Positions 3,983 through 47,083 of a stretch of DNA of 64,000 nt are shown here, one piece after another. The DNA is taken from assembly GCA_022844485.1 (NCBI GenBank), contig JALHLQ010000008.1, forward strand, positions 107,239-171,238, written 5' to 3'. Position 1 is the stretch's first letter. Every line of letters starts with the position of its first letter. The translations under genes and the position numbers were made by a program. This stretch comes from Xanthobacteraceae bacterium. Its GTDB lineage: Bacteria > Pseudomonadota > Alphaproteobacteria > Rhizobiales > Xanthobacteraceae. The notes beneath the pieces were generated by a model that worked only from the letters and a program-made list of their open reading frames with translations, was not told the origin of the DNA and did not search any database.

Positions 3983-4732
3983 TCAGCGTCCCAGCCGACG
4001 CAAAAGGTGCTGCTCATAAGTGTGAAACAGCGCGTTCACGACTGTCACAAGCAGGATAACGAAGAGCATCAGGGCGTACATTGTCGCATTGTCAAAGTTG
4101 TTGAACGCATAAGCAATCGAGTAGCCGATGCCTGATGAAGCCATGATGAATTCGGCCGCAATGACACCGATGAACGAATAGGCGATCGCGAGCTTGATGC
4201 CCGTGAACAGGTACGGAACGGCGCTTGGAAGCTTAATCTGCAACGCCACCGCGATGGGTCCCATTCGATACATCTTCCCAGTCTTGACCAGCACACGCGG
4301 GATCCGGTCGAACCCGTTTAGCGTGGCGATGATCATCGCAACGATGCCGAACAGGAATCCAATGGCGACGATCGCGCCGCGGCCAAGACCGAACAGCACG
4401 ATGAACAGCGGGTAGAACGCGAAGAAAGGCAAGGCGTAGTAGCTCGCGAGAAAGGGATCGACCGCGCGGCGTACACGCGGAAACGCATGAACCGTCGCGC
4501 CGATCACGAACCCTCCTGCAACAGACATGACGAAGGCGAGCGCAACATTGCCGAGCGTCTGAGTCATGTCGGCGTTCGCTTCGCCGCTCGCCAGGATATC
4601 CCAAAGCCGCCCCGTCATGGCCGAAGGCGCGATCAGGATGCGCGGACTGATGATGCCCGCCTGACAAAGACTCTCGAGGGCGAGAACGAAGCCTGCGACC
4701 ACGATCAGCCGCAACACACCGACGCGACTCAT
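3983..4732 (-). CDS. ABC transporter permease (SsuC/TauC/NrtB type), first subunit
   Basis: A 249-residue permease with an N-terminal hydrophobic helix (LIVVAGFVLALESLCQAG) and further membrane spans. The EAA loop reads AAEFIMASSGIGYSI around residues 191-205. Its ATG overlaps the ATPase stop in an ATGA arrangement at 4729-4732, which is strong evidence for one transcript. It should pair with the product of 3242-3979. Importers of this family usually have one permease gene acting as a homodimer; two distinct permease genes are less common and hint at an unusual substrate. Confidence 0.92.
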   Translation of the reverse strand: MSRVGVLRLIVVAGFVLALESLCQAGIISPRILIAPSAMTGRLWDILASGEANADMTQTLGNVALAFVMSVAGGFVIGATVHAFPRVRRAVDPFLASYYALPFFAFYPLFIVLFGLGRGAIVAIGFLFGIVAMIIATLNGFDRIPRVLVKTGKMYRMGPIAVALQIKLPSAVPYLFTGIKLAIAYSFIGVIAAEFIMASSGIGYSIAYAFNNFDNATMYALMLFVILLVTVVNALFHTYEQHLLRRLGR

Positions 4733-5583
4733 CGGCCCGCTCCCTGGCCGATCGCCTTAAGCGACTCCTCCCGAAGCAGCGACCATAAACGTGTCGTGAC
4801 GGCTCCGAATCGGGCATCCGCGGCGATGCGCGAGTCGCGCTCGCGCGGCCAGCTCGTCGCGACTTCCTCGATGATGCGCCCTGGCCTCGCTGACATGACG
4901 CCGATGCGGTCCGACAGCATCGCCGCCTCGTCGAGTGCGTGCGTGATCAGCAGCACCGTCGCCCCGGTTTCACGCCAAATCTTGAGGAGCTCGTCGCCCA
5001 TGATGAGCCGCGTCTGCGCATCGAGCGCACCGAACGGCTCGTCCAACAGGATCAGCCGCGGCTGGGTCACGAGCGTGCGGGCGATGCAAACTCGCTGGCG
5101 CATGCCGCCCGATAACTGCGCCGGATAGGCCTTGGCGAAATCAACAAGACCCATGAAGCGCAGCGCATAGTCGACACGCCGCGCGACCTCGGCCGCTTCG
5201 AGACCGGCGCGCCGAAGGCCGAATGCGATGTTGTCGGCGACGGTGAGCCAAGCGAAGGACGCGTCCTCCTGGAACACGACCCCAACTCCGTCTGGCACGA
5301 CGGCTCCAACGACCGCGCGCCCCTCGAAACTCACTTGCCCCGAGGTGGCAGGCGACAATCCGGCAAGCACGTCGACGAGTGTCGACTTGCCGCAGCCCGA
5401 AGGCCCGATCACAGAGAAAAATTCACCACGCCGCAAGACGAGATCCACGCCCGCGAGCGCTTGCACCCCTGGATTTCCATCGATTCCTGCATACACTCGC
5501 ACGACATCGCGCATTTCCGCATGCGCATCGGCCATCGTGTGGTCCCGCGCTATACGATCGCGCGGAACCGGAGTGACGCTCAT
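4729..5583 (-). CDS. ABC transporter ATP-binding protein (SsuB/TauB/NrtD type)
   Basis: A 284-residue nucleotide-binding subunit. Walker A is GPSGCGKST, the Q loop follows at VFQEDASF, the signature is LSGGMRQR, Walker B is LILLDEPFGALD and the switch His is in LITHALDEA. I start it at 5583 (MSVTPVP), where the ATG overlaps the stop of the binding-protein gene as ATGA; a longer frame to 5703 would run far into that gene. It powers the two permeases encoded downstream. The MRQR signature form and 'FGALD' are typical of the taurine/nitrate/sulfonate importer subfamily. Confidence 0.94.
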   Translation of the reverse strand: MSVTPVPRDRIARDHTMADAHAEMRDVVRVYAGIDGNPGVQALAGVDLVLRRGEFFSVIGPSGCGKSTLVDVLAGLSPATSGQVSFEGRAVVGAVVPDGVGVVFQEDASFAWLTVADNIAFGLRRAGLEAAEVARRVDYALRFMGLVDFAKAYPAQLSGGMRQRVCIARTLVTQPRLILLDEPFGALDAQTRLIMGDELLKIWRETGATVLLITHALDEAAMLSDRIGVMSARPGRIIEEVATSWPRERDSRIAADARFGAVTTRLWSLLREESLKAIGQGAGR

Positions 5584-28706: not shown

Positions 28707-29297
28707 GCCGGCGTGCTTTGGCGTTCGCCTGCCGGCGCGGCGTGGACTTTCCCAGCCGGCGCCGCCGAGGCGGCGCAACGCGTCGACCTCCCGCGAGGCG
28801 CTTTTTGCCTCCGGGGTTTGCGATTGTCCCCCCTCGAGAAACAATGAGGGGGGCGGAGCGCCGAAAGGCGCGTAATCGTAACGTGTGGCCTGCGCTTGCG
28901 AGGCGCTGGCCGCGCGCTTGTGCGAAAGCGCGCTCGCCTGTCGGCGCTCCACCGCGGCGTTTTTTTAGCCCCGGCACCGTGCTTCCTGGGACGAGGCGGA
29001 TCGGCTCTTCGCCGCCCTGAGCACGGAAGCTTTCGGCTTCCGCTCACCAGTCGCCAGTCCAGCCATTGAAGGCAGAACCCCATAATGGGCCCGGACGGTT
29101 GACGCCGAGGCCTCCCGAGTGCCCAGGCTGACGAGGCCCAAGCCCGCAGGCGCCGCATCTCGCTCCATCTTCCGAACGTCACCGGTTGACGCCCCTCAGT
29201 GAGCAAGACGCATGGATGGAAGCAAAGCAGGTGGGGCGTGCGCAAGAGATACGAAAAAATTTTCCTGGACCCTCGCGAACGCATTTTCAAACGCATC
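28707..29297. other. gene-free, Arg-codon-rich stretch
   Basis: Open frames here on both strands translate to Arg/Pro/Ser-rich text without domains. The segment 28930-29000 (translated GAPPRRFFSPGTVLP) looks like a dispersed Hyphomicrobiales repeat that recurs in annotated spurious ORFs, as far as I remember. No RNA gene is recognised. Confidence 0.5.
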
Positions 29298-29745
29298 GTG
29301 TCCCGGGCAAGCGGAGCAACGCGGAGCGCGACCCGACCCAGCGCAAAACCCGCGCAGCGCCGTGGTGAGCGTAGGGTGGGCGAAGCGCCGAAGGCGCGCG
29401 CCCACGCAAGCAGGAAACGCGTGGGCTTCGCGCGGCGAAGCCCACCCTACGGCGCTCGCTTCGGCCGGGGAACGGATTCATTACACACCGCGTGTCCCGG
29501 GCAAGCGGAGCGCGACCCGGGACCCCAGCACAAAACCCGCGCAGCGCCGTGGTGAGCGTAGGGTGGGCGAAGCGCCGAAGGCGCGCGCCCACGCAAGGAA
29601 AGAAAAGACGTGGGCTTCGCGCGGCGAAGCCCACCCTACGATTGACATTCGCATGATCGAGATCGGTAGGGTGGGCGACGCGCCGAAGGCGCGCGCCCAC
29701 GCAAGCAGAAGACGTGGGCTTCGCGCGGCGAAGCCCACCCTACAG
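29298..29745. repeat. cluster of GTAGGGTGGGC palindromic repeats
   Basis: Three near-identical imperfect palindromes of about 80 bp lie at 29371-29451, 29558-29640 and 29666-29743. Each opens GTAGGGTGGGCGA and closes TCGCC..CCCACCCTAC, so each can fold into a long hairpin. The first two are preceded by a further direct repeat (29298-29370 and 29490-29557, sharing GTGTCCCGGGCAAGCGGAG and CCGCGCAGCGCCGTGGTGAG), so a ~190-bp composite unit has been duplicated. Confidence 0.9.
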
Positions 29746-29781
29746 CGTGTCAATCATTCGGTGCGCGGGCAAAGGCGCCGG

Positions 29782-35197: not shown

Positions 35198-36013
35198 ATG
35201 GCGGAAGCGGGATTGATGCGCGGCAAACGTGGCCTAATCATGGGGGTCGCGAACAACCGCTCGATCGCCTGGGGCATTGCCAAATCAGCGCACGCGCACG
35301 GGGCGCAGCTCGCCTTCACCTACCAAGGAGACGCCCTGAAGCGGCGCGTCGAGCCGCTCGCCGAGGACGTCGGCGGGCTCGTCGTCGGCCATTGCGATGT
35401 CACCGAGCCGGCAACGCTCGACGGCGTGTTCTCGCATCTGCAATCCGCCTGGGGCACGATCGACTTCCTCGTCCATTGCATCGCCTTTTCCGACAAGGAT
35501 CAACTTGACGGTCGCTATATCGACACGACGGCGGAGAACTTCTCCAGGACGCTGTCAATCAGCTGCTACTCGTTCACATCCATCGCGCAGCGCGCCGAGA
35601 AATTGATGACCAATGGCGGCTCGATGCTCACGCTCACCTATTATGGAGCGGAGAAATGGATGCCGCATTACAACGTGATGGGCGTCGCCAAGGCGGCGCT
35701 GGAGGCGAGCGTGCGTTACCTCGCCGCCGATCTCGGCGCGAAGCGAATCCGCGTCAATGCGATTTCGGCGGGCCCGATCAAGACGCTGGCGGCCTCCGGC
35801 ATCGGCGACTTCCGCTACATTCTGAAGTGGAACGAATACAACGCGCCGCTGCGGCGCTCGGTGACGATCGAAGAAGTGGGCGAGGCCGGCGTCTATCTGC
35901 TCTCGGACATGTCGAGCGCCGTGACCGGGGAGATCCATCACGTCGATGCCGGCTATCACATCGTCGGCATGAAGAACCCGGACGCGCCCGACATCAGCGG
36001 CGTGAAGGATTGA
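35198..36013 (+). CDS. fabI: enoyl-[acyl-carrier-protein] reductase (NADH)
   Basis: A 271-residue FabI-type SDR that carries out the last step of the fatty acid elongation cycle. Features are the modified nucleotide motif GLIMGVANNRSIAWGIA (~12-28), the catalytic Tyr-x6-Lys in HYNVMGVAKAALEA (~157-164), the substrate-loop segment ISAGPIKTLAASGI (~188-201) and GEIHHVDAGYHIVGM near the C-terminus. I use the ATG at 35198; the frame opens earlier at 35033 without family similarity. Tyr in LTYYGAEKWMPHY matches the family's active-site tyrosine environment. It is probably monocistronic. Confidence 0.96.
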   Translation: MAEAGLMRGKRGLIMGVANNRSIAWGIAKSAHAHGAQLAFTYQGDALKRRVEPLAEDVGGLVVGHCDVTEPATLDGVFSHLQSAWGTIDFLVHCIAFSDKDQLDGRYIDTTAENFSRTLSISCYSFTSIAQRAEKLMTNGGSMLTLTYYGAEKWMPHYNVMGVAKAALEASVRYLAADLGAKRIRVNAISAGPIKTLAASGIGDFRYILKWNEYNAPLRRSVTIEEVGEAGVYLLSDMSSAVTGEIHHVDAGYHIVGMKNPDAPDISGVKD

Positions 36014-36029
36014 GGGTCGCGAAAAAGAA

Positions 36030-36055
36030 AACGGCCGGACGAAGGCCCGGCCGTT
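36030..36055 (-). terminator. stem-loop terminator between fabI and the Lys-rich gene
   Basis: AACGGCCGG and CCGGCCGTT form a 9-bp stem. On the minus strand it is followed by TTCTTTTTC, which fits a terminator for the Lys-rich gene at 36078-36800. On the plus strand it would only weakly stop fabI transcripts. Confidence 0.7.
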
Positions 36056-36077
36056 CCTGCATTCCAATGCGCGCGCG

Positions 36078-36800
36078 TCAGGCGGCGATGCGATAGAGGA
36101 TCACGTTCTCGGCCTTCTTCGCCTTCTTGGCCTTCTTCTTCTTGGCGGCGGAGAGATCGTCGCTGACGATCATTTCGGCCTTCTTCGCCTTCTTGGCCTT
36201 CTTCTTTTTCTTCGCGGCGGACAGATCGTCGCTGACGATCATTTCGGCCTTCTTCGCCTTCTTGGCCTTCTTCTTCTTGGCGGCGGAGAGATCGTCGCTG
36301 ACGATCATTTCGGCCTTCTTCGCCTTCTTGGCCTTCTTCTTTTTCTTCGCGGCGGAGAGATCGTCGCTGACGATCATTTCGGCCTTCTTCGCCTTCTTGG
36401 CCTTCTTCTTCTTGGCGGCGGAGAGATCGTCGCTGACGATCATTTCGGCCTTCTTCGCTTTCTTGGCCTTCTTCTTTTTCTTCGCGGCGGAGAGATCGTC
36501 GCTGACGATCATTTCGGCCTTCTTCGCCTTCTTGGCTTTCTTTTTCTTCTTCGCGGCGGAGAGATCGTCGCTGACGATCATTTCGGACTTCTTCTTCTTC
36601 GACGCCTTCTTCTTTTTCTTCTTCGCAGCCGACAGCTCGGTCGAGAGCTCGGCCTTCTTCATCTTCTTTGCTTTCTTCTTCTTCGCCGCCGAGAGCTCGA
36701 TGCTCTTGTCGGCGTCGATGGCGGAGGCGGCAACGACCGGCGTCAGGCTGGTGGAGCCGAGGAAGCCGAGTGCCGCGATGATCGCAGTGACTTTGCGCAT
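36078..36800 (-). CDS. exported lysine-rich tandem-repeat protein, novel
   Basis: A 240-residue protein with a convincing signal peptide (MRKVTAIIAALGFLGSTSLTPVVAAS, cleavage near 25). A short lead-in (ELSAAKKKKAKKMKK, ELSAAKKKKKKASKKKK) precedes seven tandem units at residues 72-229. Each unit is AEMIVSDDLSAAK(4-5)AKKAKK, 22 or 23 residues, and long and short units alternate in the last six. The protein ends AENVILYRIAA. A block with alternating acidic/hydrophobic (EMIVSDDLS) and poly-Lys parts does not match any domain I know. The coding strand is real: the signal peptide and start fit, and the stem-loop at 36030 has its T tract downstream. A role in binding an anionic cell-surface polymer, DNA or lipid is guesswork. 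Confidence 0.75.
   Translation of the reverse strand: MRKVTAIIAALGFLGSTSLTPVVAASAIDADKSIELSAAKKKKAKKMKKAELSTELSAAKKKKKKASKKKKSEMIVSDDLSAAKKKKKAKKAKKAEMIVSDDLSAAKKKKKAKKAKKAEMIVSDDLSAAKKKKAKKAKKAEMIVSDDLSAAKKKKKAKKAKKAEMIVSDDLSAAKKKKAKKAKKAEMIVSDDLSAAKKKKKAKKAKKAEMIVSDDLSAAKKKKAKKAKKAENVILYRIAA
36114..36587 (-). repeat. 66/69-bp tandem repeat array inside the Lys-rich gene
   Basis: Seven nearly identical in-frame units, alternately 69 and 66 bp after the first, make up two-thirds of the gene. The 3-bp length difference is one Lys codon. Near-identity at synonymous positions suggests recent expansion or gene conversion, and copy number should vary between strains. Confidence 0.92.
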
Positions 36801-37184
36801 GTGTGTGAAACCCTTGTGTGAACCGTGATCGCCTGCCGACAGGAGCTGACTGGTGGGTCAGAGGCGGCCTGCTCACCGAGGCTCCCCTAGCCGGTGCGAC
36901 TCCATATCGCAGGAACCATCATCTTTCAATTGGGCTCAGTGGAAAAAACCCAATAAATTCCGAAGCTTAACAGTTATTCAGGTTGCCATTAACGCGCGTT
37001 CAGGTAACTGAAGGCGGGTTCACCGGGATAAATCGGAGTTCAGGGTTCCACCCTCCGGCGGATGATCGACGCTGCCTTCGGCAGGCCTGCAACCGGCCGA
37101 CGGTGAGGCCGTGGACCTGTAAGCCTTCCCTTCATTGACCCGTTATAGGCTCGGGGTCTAGGACACCAAAGAGCGCGCAAACCG
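36801..37184. other. divergent intergenic region, Lys-rich gene and aroC
   Basis: 384 bp without a gene. An AT-rich core around 36940-36985 (CCCAATAAATTCCGAAGCTTAACAG begins with 20 such bases) is the likely promoter area for one or both genes. I recognise no riboswitch or clear operator. Confidence 0.5.
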
Positions 37185-38315
37185 ATGTCATTCAATACCT
37201 TCGGCCACATGTTCCGGGTGACGACCTTCGGCGAGAGCCACGGGGCGGCGATCGGCTGCGTCGTCGACGGATGCCCGCCGCGCATTCCGCTGGAGGCGTC
37301 CGACATCCAGCGCGAGCTCGATCGGCGGCGGCCCGGCCAATCGCGCTTCACCACGCAGCGGCGCGAGCCGGACGAGGTGCGCATCCTCTCCGGCGTCTTT
37401 GCGGATGAGGGTGGCGCGCAGGTCACGACCGGCGCGCCGATCGCGCTTTTGATCGACAATGTCGATCAGCGCTCGAAGGATTATTCCGAGATCAAGGATG
37501 CCTACCGGCCCGGCCATGCCGATTATGCCTATGACGCGAAATACGGCATCCGCGACTATCGCGGCGGCGGCCGCTCGTCGGCGCGCGAGACGGCGGCGCG
37601 CGTGGCCGCCGGCGCGATCGCGCGCAAGATCGTGCCCGGTTTGCGCGTGCGCGGCGCGCTGATCCAGATGGGGCCGCACAGGATCGACCGCGCGGCGTGG
37701 GACTGGGACGCCGTCGAGCAGAACCCCTTCTTCTGTCCCGACGCCACGATGGCCGAGCGCTATGCGGATTTCCTCGACGGCGTTCGCAAGACCGGGTCGT
37801 CGGTCGGCGCGGTGATCGAGGTGCTCGCCGAAGGGGTGCCCGCCGGGCTCGGCGCGCCGGTCTACGGCAAGCTCGACGCCGAGCTTGCGGGCGCGCTGAT
37901 GGGCATCAACGCGGTGAAGGGCGTTGAGATCGGCGACGGCTTCGCCACCGCGGCGATGAGCGGCGAAGAAAACGCCGACGAGATGCGCATGGGCAATGAC
38001 GGCCGGCCGCGTTTCCTCTCGAACCACGCAGGCGGCATCCTCGGCGGCATCTCGACCGGCCAGCCGCTCGTCGTGCGCTTCGCGGTGAAGCCGACGTCAT
38101 CCATTTTGACGCCGCGCGCGACCGTCGACCGCTTCGGGCGCGAGACGGAGATTTCCACCAAGGGCCGCCACGATCCTTGCGTCGGCATCCGCGCCGTGCC
38201 GATCGGCGAAGCCATGGTCGCCTGCGTCATCGCCGACCATTTCCTGCGCCACCGCGGACAGGTGGGCGAGCAAGTGGGGTGGCCGGCCGAGGGGGCCGGC
38301 GGCGGCGGCCCATGA
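37185..38315 (+). CDS. aroC: chorismate synthase
   Basis: A 376-residue FMN-dependent enzyme that converts 5-enolpyruvylshikimate 3-phosphate to chorismate, the last common step of aromatic amino acid synthesis. It begins [20 protein letters not shown] (signature 1). [23 protein letters not shown], the second signature [19 protein letters not shown] (~125-143), and the C-terminal [24 protein letters not shown] segment with its conserved His/Asp are all present. The length is slightly above the bacterial average because of a Gly-rich tail. ribBX follows 136 bp later in the same direction. Confidence 0.96.
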
Positions 38316-44297: not shown

Positions 44298-44537
44298 GAT
44301 CATGCTCCTTTGTTCGAGCATGATCTTGTCCGAAAACCGCTTAGCACTTTTCGGGGTCATGCTCTTTTGTTCGAGCATGATCTTGTCCGAAAACCGCTTC
44401 GCACTTTTCGGGATCATGCTCTTTTGTTCGAGCATGATCTTGTCCGAAAACCGCTTAGCACTTTTCGGGGTCATGCTCTTTTGTTCGAGCATGATCTTGT
44501 CCGAAAACCGCTTCGCACTTTTCGGGATCATGCTCGG
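44298..44537. repeat. four-copy tandem array of the 57-bp Hyphomicrobiales intergenic repeat
   Basis: The unit TTGTTCGAGCATGATC-TTGTCCGAAAACCGCTT-N-GCACTTTTCGGG-N-TCATGCTC starts at 44310, 44367, 44424 and 44481, an exact 57-bp period. Each unit is an imperfect palindrome (GAGCATGATC with GATCATGCTC, CCGAAAA with TTTTCGG). Copies alternate between CTTAGC...GGGGTC and CTTCGC...GGGATC versions. It lies between the MATE gene stop and the RNA methyltransferase start. Confidence 0.95.
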
Positions 44538-46830: not shown

Positions 46831-46891
46831 CGGCTGTCCCTATTGCCCTCTCCCTCGCAGGCACGCGCTCACTGCAAACGGTAGCCCGGAC

Positions 46892-47083
46892 TTGCGCGCC
46901 TTTGCCCACCCTAGCGCGAGGCCGTAGGGTGGGCACGCGAAGCGTGCCCACGTTTTCATGACGTGGGCACGGCGCTTGCGCGCCTTTGCCCACCCTAGCG
47001 CGAGGCCGTAGGGTGGGCACGCGAAGCGTGCCCACGTTTTCATGACGTGGGCACGGCGCTTGCGCGCCTTTGCCCACCCTACC
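46892..47083. repeat. GTAGGGTGGGC repeats between dxs and tlyA
   Basis: Two full 84-bp direct units start GTAGGGTGGGCACGCGAAG at 46924 and 47008, and a partial unit lies at 46892-46922. Each contains CGTGCCCACGTTTTCATGA and ends CGCCTTTGCCCACCCTA, giving hairpins built from GTAGGGTGGGC and GCCCACCCTAC. Confidence 0.92.

Follow-up and report, generated by a model that had tools for sequence, protein, structure and literature searches.

What does a lysine-dominated and probably exported protein do for an alphaproteobacterium? The question is raised by a gene in a 64,000-nucleotide stretch of a Xanthobacteraceae genome (contig JALHLQ010000008.1; hereafter the window), which lies between fabI and aroC, pointing towards the former and away from the latter. 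Among 15 relatives that lack the exported gene and whose fabI-aroC gap was read, 12 have a histidine-phosphatase-like ORF there (recognised by inspection); no such ORF was seen at 36013-37185 of the window, where the lysine gene occupies the gap. The features of the locus are as follows.

35198..36013, plus strand: fabI, enoyl-ACP reductase, convergent neighbour (Pfam PF13561; start by inspection)
36028..36057, minus strand: terminator-like hairpin with a 13-bp stem and a T-rich tail (similar stems follow the stop in relatives)
36078..36800, minus strand: CDS of the predicted exported lysine-repeat protein, 240 aa, ATG to TGA, free of internal stops
36081..36110, minus strand: conserved C-terminal tail ENVILYRIAA (motif kept in relatives)
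36111..36584, minus strand: seven near-perfect units EMIVSDDLSAAK4-5AKKAKKA, residues 73-230 (sequence and Tandem Repeats Finder)
36585..36713, minus strand: two degenerate lysine units and the stretch ahead of the perfect ones, residues 30-72 (sequence)
36726..36800, minus strand: predicted Sec signal peptide MRKVTAIIAALGFLGSTSLTPVVAA, residues 1-25 (sequence; cleavage site by inspection)
36801..36895, minus strand: 5' leader with an AAGGG ribosome-binding-like sequence (sequence)
36901..36906, minus strand: -10-like TATGGA (inspection of a 16-locus alignment)
36924..36929, minus strand: -35-like TTGAAA, 17-bp spacer (inspection of the alignment)
36966..36992, minus strand: conserved 27-bp element TTAATGGCAACCTGAATAACTGTTAAG (alignment and pattern search)
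36997..37003, minus strand: half-site-like CTGAACG adjoining the element (alignment, by inspection)
37185..38315, plus strand: aroC, chorismate synthase, divergent neighbour (Pfam PF01264)

The initial annotation, made from the sequence alone, described an ORF with seven lysine-rich units behind a signal peptide, and the frame is indeed intact on the minus strand. The units agree with that description except for an S in place of A ahead of EMIV in the first; EMIVSDDLSAA starts at residues 73, 96, 119, 141, 164, 186 and 209, and two degenerate units (IELSAA and TELSAA) on the N-terminal side bring the total to nine. Tandem Repeats Finder recovered the array both as a 69-bp period (7.6 copies, 92% matches, score 865) and as a 135-bp double unit (3.8 copies, 96% matches, score 929), far above the score threshold of 50. 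The extreme lysine concentration that had been claimed was likewise borne out: with residues 1-25 taken as the signal peptide, the mature 215 residues comprise 79 K, 1 R, 16 D and 11 E and no P, giving a net charge of +53. R outnumbers K in all nine neighbouring genes counted (K/R of 9/35 in AroC, 9/41 in RibB and 12/14 in FabI), and composition thus indicates that lysine is preferred over arginine in the window protein (79 K/1 R versus 9 K/35 R in AroC). The gene locus is unique in its own genome (search at E up to 0.001).

Inspection and conservation reveal a basic N-terminal stretch, a hydrophobic core and small residues before the cleavage site, and the signal start pattern recurs in 122 of 124 proteins, in line with the signal peptide proposed initially and suggesting that the window protein is exported via Sec. 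The structure model contains helices only, the longest at residues 134-239, at a mean pLDDT of 68 and a pTM of 0.26; it contributes little to the reading of the protein and gives no backing to the coiled-coil fibre that had been envisaged. As anticipated, no described family was recognised for the protein, no Pfam or NCBIfam model having reached its cut-off; tify, Tetrabrachion and DUF6627 (Pfam) and one NCBIfam match stayed below theirs and were rejected. Scans of 17 other family members against Pfam and NCBIfam yielded best E-values of 0.003 or weaker, and DUF3984, VirB10 and others were dismissed as weak matches. An Rfam scan of the window at the gathering threshold returned two tRNAs and nothing else.

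A search with the window protein found 22 relatives, and a profile search found 159 at E up to 0.001. Among the matches listed, at least 120, most are nameless, the named ones being hypothetical proteins and one JGI record called FlhA; the organisms named among them are Xanthobacteraceae, Pseudolabrys and Rhizobiales. A contig scan with one pattern returned two loci, one of a Pseudorhodoplanes and the other of a Hyphomicrobiales MAG. Of 391 family genomes, 20 gave a match to the gene (two of these matches being weak), and in an order-wide sample its own genome alone was matched (1/397). G437 and G620 were rejected as members on weak matches (E 0.003-0.004), and their loci, L064 and L065, contain neither aroC nor a family ORF. 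The expectation that copy number would vary was confirmed by six full-length proteins that share identical first 38 residues and carry 2, 3 or 4 units, the frame being lost in a seventh. The other 91 tailed proteins have 1 to 4 units (P0101 is one of the single-unit members), compared with 9 in the window protein, for which the unit pattern gives 10, as ELST ahead of the second unit is counted; the Pseudorhodoplanes locus has seven or more. In four loci (L057, L058, L060 and L061), a like signal peptide at a like position precedes paired-cysteine units (VDCADPKNAKNKACKK, CKKNPKLKGC) and the tail is absent, and P0112 contains both the lysine and the cysteine-bearing unit types.

Beyond what the initial annotation had noticed, the locus has a conserved tail, a terminator and an upstream element, and the element proved the most informative. 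aroC adjoins the site in 18 of the 21 loci examined (window included, one genome counted twice), the other three being one family member elsewhere (L062) and two weak matches. Alignment of the upstream DNA of 16 loci revealed a conserved block approximately 150-190 bp before the start, in which half-site-like repeats at 10-12 bp steps precede the -35/-10-like pair, an arrangement suggesting that the element is the operator of a regulator. A sigma-70 promoter scan upstream of the lysine gene reported no site. The pattern TTAATGNNAANCTGAAYNNNYGTTAAG has one site in its own genome at up to 3 mismatches, and at up to 2 mismatches it marks 43 sites in 42 of 296 family genomes, spanning 12 genera; the reversed control pattern had zero matches in the same 296 genomes. 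Wherever the next gene was readable, it was a polycation gene (41 of 41 genomes; genomes within a genus are not independent, and every site except that of G026 adjoins aroC). The 42 genomes divide into 23 with lysine micro-ORFs, 12 with the exported type, six with a Pls/PosA-family synthetase, and one (G628) whose site is cut by a contig end. Four of the twelve exported-type genomes carry cysteine-bearing units; also among the twelve, the gene of G016 is truncated by the end of its contig, that of G565 contains masked bases, and that of G429 is broken in its C-terminal frame. In G693 (1 mismatch, L063), the array and tail are present and the signal part is missing. Looser matches precede a micro-ORF in G003 (3 mismatches) and the exported type in G032, G609 and G672 (6, 4 and 5 mismatches); in G019, an element-like site with 4 mismatches adjoins aroC, and no lysine ORF was seen there.

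The micro-ORFs (loci L106-L116, L118, L071, L074 and L174-L182) encode 9-22 residues, such as MATKKKKAKKKSK, MAKKPKKKKMKK and MAKKKSKKK, and lie downstream of the element beside aroC, most of them behind a ribosome-binding-like sequence recognised by inspection. Judged by a criterion fixed after the ORFs had been seen, a micro-ORF is present in 23 of 23 loci versus 1 of 3259 background positions. Tandem copies occur, four in G008 and two each in G034 and G013; in G013, each of the two follows its own element. None has a signal peptide, so another route would be needed if the product acts outside the cell.

In six element genomes, the following gene comprises about 1390 codons; in G555, the contig ends within the ORF that follows the element, and the C-terminal domain turned up on a different contig. 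The three genes that were scanned (P0125-P0127, at the element in G011, G446 and G498) belong to TIGR02353, with scores of 707, 693 and 710 bits (cut-off 423) and with adenylation and carrier domains; the remaining ones were identified by genome search. The Pls/PosA family is described as making epsilon-polylysine, polyornithine and related chains (PMC10522769). P0125 matches the adenylation domain of epsilon-poly-L-lysine synthase (7wew, E 1.5e-79) and that of PosA (8g95, 3.9e-77), but linear gramicidin synthase and further NRPS chains outscore both, and the match therefore does not tell the substrate. The pocket of P0125 and P0126 reads FDFSVEE, with the Asp-to-Glu spacing reported for PosA, whose pocket residues include Asp217 and Glu221 (PMC10522769); pocket codes of unknown substrate have been reported from Rhizobia and Methylobacterium (PMC10522769, PMC8117764). 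P0125 also contains several hydrophobic stretches long enough to span a membrane.

The synthetase adjoins aroC in five genomes, and in G026 it lies behind an element (2 mismatches) at another locus, with aroC approximately 0.98 Mb away on the contig. Within genus g175, one and the same site holds the exported type in G429, G460 and G480 and the synthetase in G498, G542 and G555. Of 53 chosen genomes, eight proved to have the synthetase, none of them among the 15 exported-type or the 15 micro-ORF genomes; a further search, over 296 genomes, detected it in 28 (27 above the cut-off), so its absence from 15 genomes is not significant alone. Strict exclusion between the synthetase and the lysine gene is ruled out by G534, where the element precedes a micro-ORF and a synthetase lies at a different place. 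Among 21 other synthetase loci, the element is absent from the upstream DNA of 18, and for three (L155, L164 and L167) the upstream DNA is too short to tell, making the link between element and synthetase one-sided: the element predicts a polycation gene in this sample, whereas most synthetases have no element. In an aroC tree of 57 rows (L118 and L130 of the 59 loci were left out for their short aroC), every element-bearing locus except one belongs to a single group of 44 rows, whose support of 87/86 is below the strict mark and which includes nine rows without element or lysine gene. The exception, G008, is weakly placed (78/30), and the gene kinds are mixed on the tree, from which the order of the forms is not readable.

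One element standing before three unrelated kinds of polycation gene suggests that what the cell needs is a polycation, of which the window protein would be the translated and exported form. On balance, we slightly favour the view that this protein is the ribosome-made counterpart of the cationic poly-amino acids predicted for the Pls/PosA synthetases behind the same element. From the shared element and the shared charge, we infer a shared job for all products, the lack of a signal peptide in the micro-ORFs being the main difficulty of this reading. A condition sensed via the element would lead the cell to set out a polycation, which in the window genome would be translated and then sent out by Sec. 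The lysine blocks, spaced by acidic DLSAA stretches, could then bind polyanions as expected of epsilon-polylysine, the candidates being polyanions of the cell's own surface, of matrix or DNA, or of competing cells; unit number would set chain length and charge, and the YRIAA tail may be a docking or processing site. Polyanion binding by the window protein, as proposed initially, is plausible. A bolder extension, to which we give somewhat less than an even chance, is that the site beside aroC is a dedicated polycation slot, a regulated promoter whose product would have to be a chain resembling polylysine and which lineages would fill interchangeably with a synthetase, micro-proteins or the exported repeat protein. 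The micro-proteins would be translated directly, sometimes in tandem, the exported protein would have grown by unit duplication, and in the window gene a chain made by ribosomes would have taken the place of a non-ribosomal homopolymer.

Polycations rich in lysine are familiar molecules in themselves, and we know of no precedent for one conserved upstream element before three unrelated ways to make a polycation, with protein and synthetase sharing a site inside one genus. The products of Pls/PosA enzymes, epsilon-poly-L-lysine and delta-poly-L-ornithine, are chains of cationic diamino acids, a trait shared by the window protein. The 7-12-mers reported for PosA (PMC10522769) are also comparable in length to the 9-22 residues of the micro-ORFs. 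Unlike these polymers, the window chain is a translation product joined by alpha peptide bonds, and it contains spacer residues as well as a predicted signal peptide; the protein has neither an adenylation nor a carrier domain and no match to TIGR02353, for which the NRPS terminal domain has to exceed 423 bits. AlgP and PhaF are described as histone H1-like KPAA-repeat proteins, and the net charge of AlgP, +55, is close to the +53 found here, with tandem lysine-alanine repeats in both; however, AlgP and PhaF are reported to be intracellular, with DNA, polyphosphate or PHA granules as their targets (PMC9239181), whereas the window protein has a predicted signal peptide and no KPAA unit, and it falls outside that family. 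Among the literature covered by title or abstract, with subscription journals mostly outside, nothing was found on the protein, the unit, the element or the micro-ORFs.

Mycobacterial HBHA (heparin-binding hemagglutinin), an adhesin whose lysine-rich repeats bind the polyanion heparin (PMC3293801), raises the alternative of a glue for envelope or matrix that has no functional tie to Pls/PosA polymers: the exported polycation would attach to LPS, capsule or extracellular DNA of the cell itself, and the element would do no more than mark a convenient promoter. The HBHA repeats, given as KKAAPA and KKAAAKK behind a coiled coil and linker (PMC3293801), differ from the unit found here, and the window protein, with its proline-free mature part and no coiled-coil or linker domain found, is not an HBHA. 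Predicted export, extreme charge and variable unit number would all suit a glue, but the reading leaves unexplained both the polycation gene at the element in 41 of 41 readable genomes and the element before a synthetase away from aroC in G026, and we regard it as unlikely, at roughly a one-in-five chance.

The micro-ORF loci raise another alternative, in which the RNA would count for more than the peptide: the transcript of micro-ORF genomes would be a structured small RNA containing the lysine micro-ORF, and the exported gene would be an outgrowth of it. The 3' part of the micro-ORF transcript, compared in 11 transcripts (L106-L115 and L071; ten from one genus and one from another), folds into three predicted helices with 98% of cells paired. 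In 8 of its 29 pairs, both sides have changed, above all 500 shuffles, and four of five measures were reached by 0 of 500 shuffles and the fifth by 40 of 500, in a control that ignores relatedness. An Rfam search of ten loci found no family, its single match (E 0.6) being at chance level. A model of the micro-ORF leader also matches, in the right place, four of 16 exported-type leaders beside aroC (L060 at E 0.013, L056 at 0.022, L061 at 0.26 and L017 at 0.3; two below 0.05), the window leader not being among them. Against this reading, the terminator forms the third helix and accounts for some of the covariation, a start and a stop codon frame the micro-ORF in every one of the 23 loci, and the signal peptide and tail of the exported form appear conserved at the protein level. 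In addition, the one helix predicted in the exported-type leader has a compensatory change in 0 of 8 pairs, and five of six single folds have energies no better than the shuffle mean, that of L058 being modestly better (z -1.28). RNA structure was accordingly dropped for this leader, which is retained as a conserved leader only, and an RNA-centred reading of the system seems improbable.

A precursor from which proteolysis between units would free cationic peptides of about 20 residues against competitors would make sense of near-identical units with lysine blocks and acidic spacers, and synthetic delta-polyornithine is reported to inhibit yeasts and polylysine is called antimicrobial (PMC10522769). 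However, nothing recognisable as a gene for a processing protease, immunity or export lies nearby, the neighbours being fabI and aroC, and single-unit members such as P0101 exist, leaving such a precursor with only about one chance in ten.

Codon patterns bear on whether the array is selected as protein at all. A long antisense ORF overlaps the gene (36127-36828, plus strand), and codon-position patterns favour the minus-strand frame over it. The first 19 codons of 15 loci, including four with cysteine-bearing units, show 609, 379 and 994 differences at codon positions 1, 2 and 3 (the loci are related and the counts not independent), and 558 of 1356 differing codon pairs are synonymous, 41% versus the 28% expected of single changes. 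The last seven codons of eight related loci show 15, 14 and 70 differences at the three positions. These patterns support protein-level selection on the signal peptide and tail, and the spacers of the seven window units show 18 synonymous and 0 non-synonymous codon-pair differences. Array frameshifts in relatives, which the initial annotation had viewed as a sign against its reading, are borne out in part: the C-terminal frame is broken in G429 (L052; single-contig genome), where relatives have it intact, and, by inspection, several metagenome proteins change frame within the array. On the other side, 92 of 122 signal-bearing proteins keep the tail motif, the remaining 30 having a stop inside the array, a frame change or a different end (causes by inspection), and the tail is absent or out of frame in several relatives. 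A low-complexity array expanded by slippage and of little function, to which the patchy distribution (20 of 391 family genomes), the broken frames and the variable unit number might point, is highly improbable given the third-position bias in signal peptide and tail, spacers free of non-synonymous difference in the window, and the conserved upstream element.

If the window protein is indeed the translated counterpart of a synthetase product, it would have value beyond this locus. As far as we know, there is no settled view of what epsilon-polylysine-type polymers naturally do for the bacteria that make them, and a translated protein where relatives have a synthetase would offer a genetic handle on this role, as both forms could be deleted, tagged or exchanged. 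The element also offers a way to find unannotated lysine micro-ORFs, and the analysis yields a structured transcript without an Rfam family match.

The tail was also considered as a general sorting tag and rejected: the YRIAA-stop pattern occurs once in the window's own genome, at the window gene, and a longer YRIAA pattern occurs in nine of 391 family genomes, seven being this gene and two (L096 and L097) accidental-looking short ORFs. L062 of G442 (4705-5007, minus strand) encodes a lysine-rich protein with a predicted signal peptide and the tail IFYRIAA and without DLSAA units; aroC is not near, ModA-like and NUDIX-like ORFs adjoin (by inspection), and an element-like site upstream has 6 mismatches to the 27-mer, its 3' half being better kept. 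Elsewhere in the window, other repeats were seen: four copies of a 57-bp unit (44298-44535, 95% matches), of which one minus-strand frame reads as repeats; a dispersed set at 29200-29760, whose translations repeat VGFAARSPR-like strings and which is likely an intergenic repeat cluster; and an 84-bp unit present 2.3 times at 46891-47081 (100% matches), with GTGGGCACG and CGTGCCCAC parts.
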